Shown here piece by piece: positions 11,594 to 35,552 of a stretch of DNA of 37,572 nucleotides (its first letter is position 1; each line of letters starts with the position of its first letter). Location of the stretch: assembly GCA_001821435.1 (NCBI GenBank), contig MHLP01000006.1, forward strand, positions 1-37,572, given 5' to 3'. The translations under genes and the position numbers were made by a program. This stretch comes from Candidatus Lloydbacteria bacterium RIFCSPLOWO2_01_FULL_50_20 (GTDB lineage Bacteria > Patescibacteriota > Minisyncoccia > Phycocordibacterales > UBA6899). The notes beneath the pieces are model-generated. The model had not been told where the DNA came from, did no database searches, and was given only the letters and a program-made list of their open reading frames with translations.

Positions 11594-11630
11594 CAAAAAA
11601 CCCCGCAGCAGAGCAAGCGTGCTACGGGGT
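11594..11630 (-). terminator. terminator of the 945-residue protein gene
   Basis: ACCCCGCAGCA (11600-11610) pairs with TGCTACGGGGT (11620-11630); on the minus strand the stem is followed by six T residues. It also stands next to the terminator of the convergent RNA candidate. Confidence 0.7.
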
Positions 11631-15909: not shown

Positions 15910-16533
15910 TCATTTTATGCCAAGCAGGGCAAATAATTGCGCCCGTACCGCACTGACATTTTCTTTTTTTGTCGCGGAAAAAGGAACACAGGAAATATCG
16001 GGGAATTCCTGCAGAATATGGGCGAGCGCTTTTGTGCGCTCATTCTTGGTAAGCTTGTCGATCTTGTTCGCGAGGAGAAGCATCGGATGCCCTTCGGCGC
16101 GCGCGACATGGATAAGGTCGCGGTCATGATCCGTGACCCCTATCCGCGCATCAATGATAAGCACGAGAAGTTTCGGCTTCACTTCACCGCCCGACAGATA
16201 CCAGAGAATATGTTTCCGGATCTTTTCCCGTGCATCAGCGGGTATTTTTGCGTATCCATATCCGGGCAGGTCGACGAAATACCCCTTGCCGCCTACTTCA
16301 AAAAAGTTGATCTCCTGCGTTTTTCCCGGGGTCGCGCTCGTCCGCGCAAGCTTTGCATGTAAAAGCGCGTTTATGGTGGACGATTTACCGACATTCGACC
16401 GCCCGACGAATGCGACCTGCGGTTTTTTGTCATGGATGATCGGGTCGGACCCGCGGATACCGCGCGCAAAGACCGCACGGATATCGTGCGTATGATGAAA
16501 ATTGTTTTTCTTTTCTTTTTGGAGTTTCTTCAT
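15910..16533 (-). CDS. engB: ribosome biogenesis GTPase EngB/YsxC
   Basis: 207 residues with the G motifs in order: G1 VAFVGRSNVGKSST (about 40), G2 region TPGKTQ, G3 VDLPGYGYA, G4 LANKIDKL and a G5-like VPFSATK. EngB/YsxC is a circularly ordinary TrmE-Era family GTPase needed for late 50S ribosomal subunit assembly. Its length and motifs are those of a normal enzyme. On the minus strand TAGTAT lies 6 nt before the ATG with no Shine-Dalgarno, so this gene too may be leaderless. Confidence 0.95.
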   Translation of the reverse strand: MKKLQKEKKNNFHHTHDIRAVFARGIRGSDPIIHDKKPQVAFVGRSNVGKSSTINALLHAKLARTSATPGKTQEINFFEVGGKGYFVDLPGYGYAKIPADAREKIRKHILWYLSGGEVKPKLLVLIIDARIGVTDHDRDLIHVARAEGHPMLLLANKIDKLTKNERTKALAHILQEFPDISCVPFSATKKENVSAVRAQLFALLGIK

Positions 16534-16560: not shown

Positions 16561-16673
16561 ACAAGAAAGCCCCGTAGTGAGCTCACGCTTGTCTGCGCCG
16601 CACTCGGTCAAAGAGCAAGCGAAACTTGTTCTTCTTCCTCGCTATCGCAGTAAAAGCAGCGCTACCACAGGGC
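16561..16673 (-). repeat. structured terminator-like element, copy A
   Basis: Read on the minus strand, this segment matches the element at 35438-35552. It opens with GCCCTGTGGTAGCGCT, continues with TACTGC, TAGCGAGG, GAACAAGT and ACCGAG blocks, and closes with ACTACGGGGCTTT. Its ends pair (GCCCTGTGGT with ACTACGGGGC) and its middle folds as AAGAACAAG/CTTGCTCTT. It sits upstream of engB and downstream of the HNH-like gene. Confidence 0.7.
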
Positions 16674-21369: not shown

Positions 21370-21404
21370 CCCCGTAGTAAGCGCTTTACACTACCACGGG
21401 GCTG
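21365..21404 (-). terminator. terminator after PYROXD2-like gene
   Basis: On the minus strand AGCCCCGTGGTAGT pairs with ACTACGGGGTTTT. The CCCCGTGGTAG/CTACGGGG arms resemble the ends of the larger structured elements at 16561 and 35438. Confidence 0.65.
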
Positions 21405-31504: not shown

Positions 31505-31581
31505 TTTCCAACACATAAGTCGGACCCCGGTAGTATCCGCCTCAGGCGGAACTACGGGGCAAGCTTATGGAATGGAATAAA

Positions 31582-35437: not shown

Positions 35438-35552
35438 GCCCTGTAGTAGCGCTTCGCTTACTGCATCTAGCGAGGGAGAGGAACAAGTGTTCTCACTTGT
35501 TCCTTAACCGAGCGACGATGCGGAAAAGGCCGCCTTACTACGGGGCTTTTTT
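35438..35552 (+). repeat. structured terminator-like element, copy B
   Basis: Matches 16561-16673 read on the minus strand. The ends GCCCTGTAGTA (35438-35448) and TACTACGGGGC (35536-35546) pair over 11 bp; the middle is a perfect GGAACAAGTG/CACTTGTTCC hairpin (35501-35504 loop region); T6 and ATTTC follow. It ends the zinc-ribbon gene's transcript. Confidence 0.7.

Follow-up and report, generated by a model that had tools for sequence, protein, structure and literature searches.

A dispersed two-hairpin module inside palindromic terminators of a small Patescibacteria genome, a candidate element moved as folded single-stranded DNA

The segment at 35438-35552 of the window is two nested things, an outer palindromic terminator and a two-hairpin module inserted into it. 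The inner module is considered, by a narrow preference, to be a non-autonomous mobile element which moves as folded single-stranded DNA in an IS200/IS605-like manner and which in the window has lodged in terminators. The window, i.e. the whole stretch of 37,572 nucleotides that was analysed, is contig C6 of a 0.99-Mb genome (~1 Mb) consisting of 44 contigs; beyond the window, this genome was covered by searches and by the sequence surrounding their matches.

Copy A (35438-35552, plus strand) and copy B (16673-16561, minus strand) are hairpins of 113-115 nt. All sequence blocks that an earlier note on this DNA had named as shared were found in both copies and in the same order, and its description of paired ends with an inner hairpin was confirmed by folding, with energies of -63.8 kcal/mol (z = -8.4) for copy A and -50.4 kcal/mol (z = -3.5) for copy B. 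In copy A, the outer palindromic terminator starts with a 5' half (GCCCTGTAGTAGCGCTTCGCTTAC, 35438..35461, plus) that ends in the target letters TTAC and is followed by the inserted module of 77 nt (35462..35538, plus, covariance model E = 7e-24), which carries its own TTAC at the end. The module is made up of hairpin I (about 35461-35523, plus), in which AGCGAGG/ACCGAGCG is a conserved internal motif, and of hairpin II (about 35526-35536, plus), while the 3' half of the palindrome together with a T-tract (TACGGGGCTTTTTT, 35539..35552, plus) forms the terminator end. The second outer palindrome, copy B, is arranged in the same way on the minus strand, with a 5' half (GCCCTGTGGTAGCGCTGCTTTTAC, 16650..16673), a module of 73 nt with CTCAC at its end (16577..16649, covariance model E = 3e-15, copy B itself being among the five sequences of the model) and a 3' half (TACGGGGCTTTCTTGT, 16561..16576) located upstream of engB (15910-16533, minus).

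The insertion point lies in the outer stem between TTAC and TACGGGG. Cutting the 77 nt from copy A leaves CCCTGTAGTAGCGCTTCGCTTACTACGGGG, which is identical in 29 of 30 positions to an unfilled palindrome on contig C18 (matching strand) reading CTTAC|TACGGGG, and copy B minus its 73 nt agrees with the unfilled palindrome in 25 of 30 positions. Upstream of engB, the source genome (G000) has the filled terminator and the congeners G002, G003 and G004 have an ordinary short one; the module was found at none of the four congener loci. Comparing pairs of copies within a genome, the core is identical in 65-70 of 70 positions, and the left flanks are mostly unrelated. Taken together, the dispersed near-identical copies, the sharp borders, the unfilled host palindrome in the same genome and the absence from the engB site of the congeners support the earlier suggestion of mobility for the inner module.

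The two window modules of 73-77 nt belong to a family in which every element has two adjacent hairpins: the long hairpin I (~60 nt) contains a conserved internal motif of tandem G-A, and hairpin II varies in length. In 75 distinct aligned copies, standard pairs make up 90.4% of the pair cells, and two-sided changes occur in 21 of 23 pairs. The number of two-sided cells was 410 compared to 130 in shuffles, and the covariation score was 0.61 compared to 0.21 in shuffles and ~0.1 with the partners slid; the alignment was fitted to the model and therefore leans in a favourable direction, yet the margin is large. Further copies and covarying pairing had been set beforehand as the test of the earlier proposal; both were found, and the covariation is strong.

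Strong covariation would also be expected of a structured RNA gene or a cis-regulatory RNA, that is, a decorated terminator or regulator spread by ordinary duplication with its RNA fold under selection. This explanation appears improbable. G-U pairs show a modest excess over A-C mismatches in the strand as written (72 vs 32), which speaks for RNA, whereas they amount to only ~5% of the pairs, show no excess in the inner tip helix (26 vs 21) and are favoured by the aligner; accordingly, the G-U content does not separate RNA from single-stranded DNA. Both window copies lie inside terminators, and 15 of 73 copies are situated directly 3' of a terminator-like hairpin; this proportion, however, is not above the lenient control (142 of 937, p = 0.24), and a terminator preference of the whole family was rejected on this basis. 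Furthermore, the upstream gene runs on the same strand as the module in 20 cases and on the opposite strand in 29, so that orientation relative to neighbouring genes looks random, and tandem copies and insertion borders suit a mobile element. The idea of a decorated terminator therefore stays apt for the two window copies with their outer stem and T-tract, but not for most of the other copies, which lie outside terminators and show no orientation preference. A trans-acting RNA, likewise considered in the earlier note, is not supported in view of the low G-U content and the lack of an Rfam match for the module, nor is a general terminator role.

A covariance model built from five copies detected 15 sites in the source genome (a sixteenth match repeats one of them, a window site, on the opposite strand), so the element is not restricted to two copies as had been supposed; its inner part occurs about 15 times. 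In the order, 32 of the 79 genomes searched were positive, with the highest copy numbers in G053 (19), G032 (15), G021 (9) and G050 (7). A phylum-wide search with a broader model, in which 12 candidates were scored per genome and which is hence less sensitive, yielded 13 of 380 genomes; the module is sparse in the phylum outside its order. An exact 22-base pattern found 84 stretches in a species-level genome collection, nearly all from Patescibacteria or unnamed metagenome-assembled genomes (MAGs), and gave no match in viral contigs. Matches in Blastococcus, Microbacterium, Caulobacteraceae and Methylobacteriaceae were discarded, as they lack the flanks of the element and look like chance, while the contig of a Bacteroidetes MAG (L162), which may be misbinned, holds a full element. 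At the gathering score, Rfam showed no match in the window and none overlapping the module in ten related loci, and searches of the open-access literature on Patescibacteria with element or structured-RNA topics yielded no description of the family, an absence which is weak evidence. Apparently, the family is uncatalogued and not in Rfam.

A chance or convergent likeness of two strong terminators deserves practically no weight in comparison. The outer arms alone are indeed common to many palindromes, but the inner module recurs, copy B matches copy A with a BLAST E of 1.6e-11, and dozens of copies in other genomes share the same internal motif; this reading is refuted by the further copies and the covariation.

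Regarding genomic position, 50 of 77 copies lie outside any open reading frame (ORF) of at least 70 aa, though such ORFs cover 87%. The copies are thus mostly intergenic, and their orientation to neighbouring genes shows no preference. GC skew revealed no replication-strand bias (38 vs 39), the stretches of up to 20 kb making this a weak test. In G053, 17 of the 19 listed copies are on the contig minus strand, while an arbitrary contig orientation would be expected. Some copies are themselves interrupted or extended: those at C21:7850-7974 (L065) and on C34 (L066) share an insertion of ~55 nt (CCTAAAATTCACGACCGCAGGGAGATGAATTTGGAAGTACTCGAAGTGGTGCG) within the 3' arm of hairpin I, and similar inserts occur in L193 and L227. 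Long right ends (G032, G021, G030 and others; L145, L146, L081, L085) often have nested palindromes in hairpin II, with letters similar to GGTTTAATACC on either side, as though another element had inserted there.

As for the outer stem (GCCCTGTAGTAG.../...CTACGGGGCTTTTTT), it represents a short palindromic terminator. Its arms, GCCCTGTAGTAG.../...CTACTACGGGGC followed by a T-tract, are members of the CCCCGTAGT...ACTACGGGG palindrome family. This palindrome and inverted-repeat family is abundant in the ~1 Mb genome, where ACTACGGGG was counted 63 times compared to 7 for the reversed control. The window holds two unfilled relatives, CCCCGTGGTAG...CTTACTACGGGGTTTTC (21370..21401, minus) and another at 31525..31559 (plus), and a diverged one, CCCCGCAGCAG...GTGCTACGGGG (11601..11629, plus). 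The first two had been regarded as smaller relatives of the whole element that end other genes. They do share the outer palindrome, but the inner module is absent from both, and while the copy at 21370-21401 is terminator-like, the one at 31525 has no T-tract and is not. For copy A, the sequence of the outer stem presents the features of an intrinsic terminator, namely a G+C-rich stem and a subsequent T-tract where a gene ends; in copy B, with CTTTCTTG, the terminator scan made no call.

In many CCCCGTAGT...ACTACGGGG pairs, the two members are 75-400 bp from each other, with other sequence between them. Since exact 4-bp direct repeats (TATA, CAAG, ATGA, TTCA, CTCG, TACA) were found outside 12 of 19 inspected pairs compared to 1.6% at random positions, these larger outer elements look like inverted-repeat mobile elements. 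They combine terminal inverted repeats with direct target duplication, as do miniature elements with terminal inverted repeats (TIR MITEs), and the ~30-nt palindromes are without the 4-bp repeats. Some outer elements carry the module near their right end, and in two such cases on C29, which have TATA and TACA repeats, module and outer element seem to have moved together. It could be argued from these repeats and this apparent joint movement that the module is merely the internal part of a CCCCGTAGT element, i.e. of a TIR-type MITE moved by a DDE transposase. Modules, however, also stand alone without CCCCGTAGT ends on C36, C37, C40, C18 and C38, they have TTATT borders in other genomes, and palindromes and TIR elements occur without the module. 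A MITE is a likely account of the outer elements, whereas for the module it is largely refuted and very improbable.

The preferred reading, movement as folded single-stranded DNA, agrees with the borders. Most copies start right after TTAY or CTAY, whatever the locus, and the right border is formed by the element's own hairpin II, closing in TTTAY or TTAY. As is typical of IS200/IS605 members, a fixed tetranucleotide is kept as left flank. Copies at inverted-repeat and tRNA sites have CTAC on the left and TTAC on the right; this difference between the left YTAY and the right TTAY of the element argues against an ordinary target duplication. Repeats of 9-12 nt were observed at three tRNA genes and long repeats also in tandem copies (L101, L142, L087), but target duplication as a rule was dismissed, as long repeats are restricted to inverted-repeat sites, tRNA sites and tandem copies. 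For IS608, insertion takes place exactly 3' of TTAC, which remains as left flank (PMC5934647).

Probably, the module transposes as folded single-stranded DNA which would enter just 3' of a YTAC/YTAT tetranucleotide, end in its own TTTAY and leave the target unduplicated at ordinary sites. This would follow the logic of IS200/IS605 (HUH, Y1) with a transposase supplied in trans, and a folded single strand would explain a strand-specific structure without terminal inverted repeats. The two window copies would have entered the 3' arm of CCCCGTAGT-type palindromes acting as intrinsic terminators, in which the terminator stem and T-tract may still be able to pair around the insert.

With regard to a Y1 enzyme as the mobiliser, 9 of the 10 genomes that have at least three copies contain Y1 transposases; over all genomes the association is weak (24 of 32 module genomes vs 26 of 47 others, p = 0.10), a module lies within about 1.5 kb at 2 of 34 Y1 loci, and G050 has seven copies and no Y1 match. 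No autonomous copy with tnpA or an ORF between its ends or hairpins was seen among about 150 copies inspected by eye, the automatic right-end finder having missed many ends. In IS200/IS605, the ends have subterminal hairpins of 20-25 nt, and a guide tetranucleotide directly precedes the foot of each on the 5' side (PMC6006769); this geometry of guide and short hairpin was not recognised in the module, in which hairpin I is ~60 nt in length and starts at the target letters. Because no autonomous copy was found, the hairpin geometry differs, Y1 genes are rarely near copies, the RAYT genes have palindromes of their own and G050 is Y1-less, the module is described as behaving like an IS200-type passenger and as a putative member. 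The mobilising enzyme was not found: the IS200-type TnpA on C43 of the source genome was rejected because its ends differ from those of the module, and RAYT because it is rarely near copies and its palindromes differ. The RAYT genes themselves (L107-L133, L009-L013) are mostly flanked by gene-specific palindromes, e.g. GAGGTTNAACCTC or AAGGTCCGACCTT.

At the 5' end of tRNA-Asp (L087), tRNA-Thr (L151) and tRNA-Ala (L180), the initial 9-12 nt of the tRNA recur in the left arm of the module, and the tRNA itself stays intact. These repeats are contrary to the prediction of a simple IS200-like insertion. On a rival reading they would be the mark, together with the tandem arrays, of the same mobile element being moved by a non-Y1 enzyme, for example a GIY-YIG-linked one or a rolling-circle Rep, which we regard as possible but clearly the less probable variant. 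In its favour, a GIY-YIG element in G004 likewise duplicates about 11 nt of a tRNA start, 9 of the 10 genomes with at least three copies have GIY-YIG relatives compared to 29 of 69 others, tandem module arrays exist, and G050 has copies yet no Y1. Against this, the terminal inverted repeats and the short duplications of GIY-YIG elements are both absent from modules as a rule, GIY-YIG relics adjoin some modules only, and their overall presence (18 of 32 module genomes vs 20 of 47 others) shows no clear association. A common mobiliser of modules and the GIY-YIG mini-elements of this order, which likewise lie at tRNA starts and also at start codons, is possible.

The GIY-YIG units are ORFs for nucleases of ~90 aa with terminal inverted repeats (CCCGTAGT... 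or TCCCGTTAGAGA...) and short direct repeats (L306/L071 at C36:6393-6659 and L074 at C7:40192; in other genomes L307-L309, L314, L319-L322 and L327). The direct repeats often equal the ATG(A) start of the next gene, and the units are apparently mini-elements which enter gene starts with neither gene broken. At L330 (G004:C51:10398-10631), such an ORF with 21-nt inverted repeats lies at a tRNA 5' end and about 11 nt of the tRNA (GGGCCCGTAGC) are repeated on the far side; further GIY-YIG ORFs are near tRNAs at L325, L329 and L334. It is tentatively conceivable that the modules represent a class of mobile structured DNA of their own, centred on Patescibacteria and separate from both REPINs and IS200 derivatives, which would share its enzyme with the GIY-YIG mini-elements and spare tRNA 5' ends and terminators by means of site-matched left arms.

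Patescibacteria genomes are reduced, yet the small folded elements described here reach up to about 20 per ~1 Mb, occupy terminators as well as the starts of tRNAs and can be nested. The strongly covarying model and the defined borders yield a family that annotators can mask or name, and raise the testable question by which enzyme folded DNA is mobilised when the gene set is so small.

Among known systems, Rho-independent terminators resemble the window copies, in which a T-tract follows the outer stem downstream of genes, whereas the module family is untied to gene 3' ends or the direction of transcription. The TIGR/tigRNA arrays of Patescibacteria (PMC12045711) share with the module folded repeats, covarying arms and the phylum, but the module forms mostly dispersed single units of fixed structure and no interspaced spacer array. 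TIR MITEs are small, non-coding, multi-copy and intergenic like the module and fit the outer CCCCGTAGT elements well, while the module lacks terminal inverted repeats and may have different letters at its left and right borders. REP/REPIN sequences (RAYT, TnpA-REP) are equally short, extragenic, folded, dispersed and sometimes tandem, with compensatory changes, and RAYT genes are common in module-bearing genomes; unlike them, the module has no inverted REP doublet with GTAG/GTGG-type tags, GTAG being present in the arms of the outer palindrome, and is rarely near RAYT genes, which carry other palindromes. Compared to IS200/IS605 ends and their non-autonomous derivatives (IS608, PATE-like), the module has no internal transposase and no separate 5' guide that was found, its hairpin I measures ~60 nt, contains a tandem G-A motif and starts directly at the target, and its right end is TTTAY instead of the TCAA of IS608. 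With these elements, however, it shares the position 3' of a TTAC-like tetranucleotide, which is retained as left flank, hairpins at both ends, a strand-specific fold and probably the lack of an ordinary target duplication.
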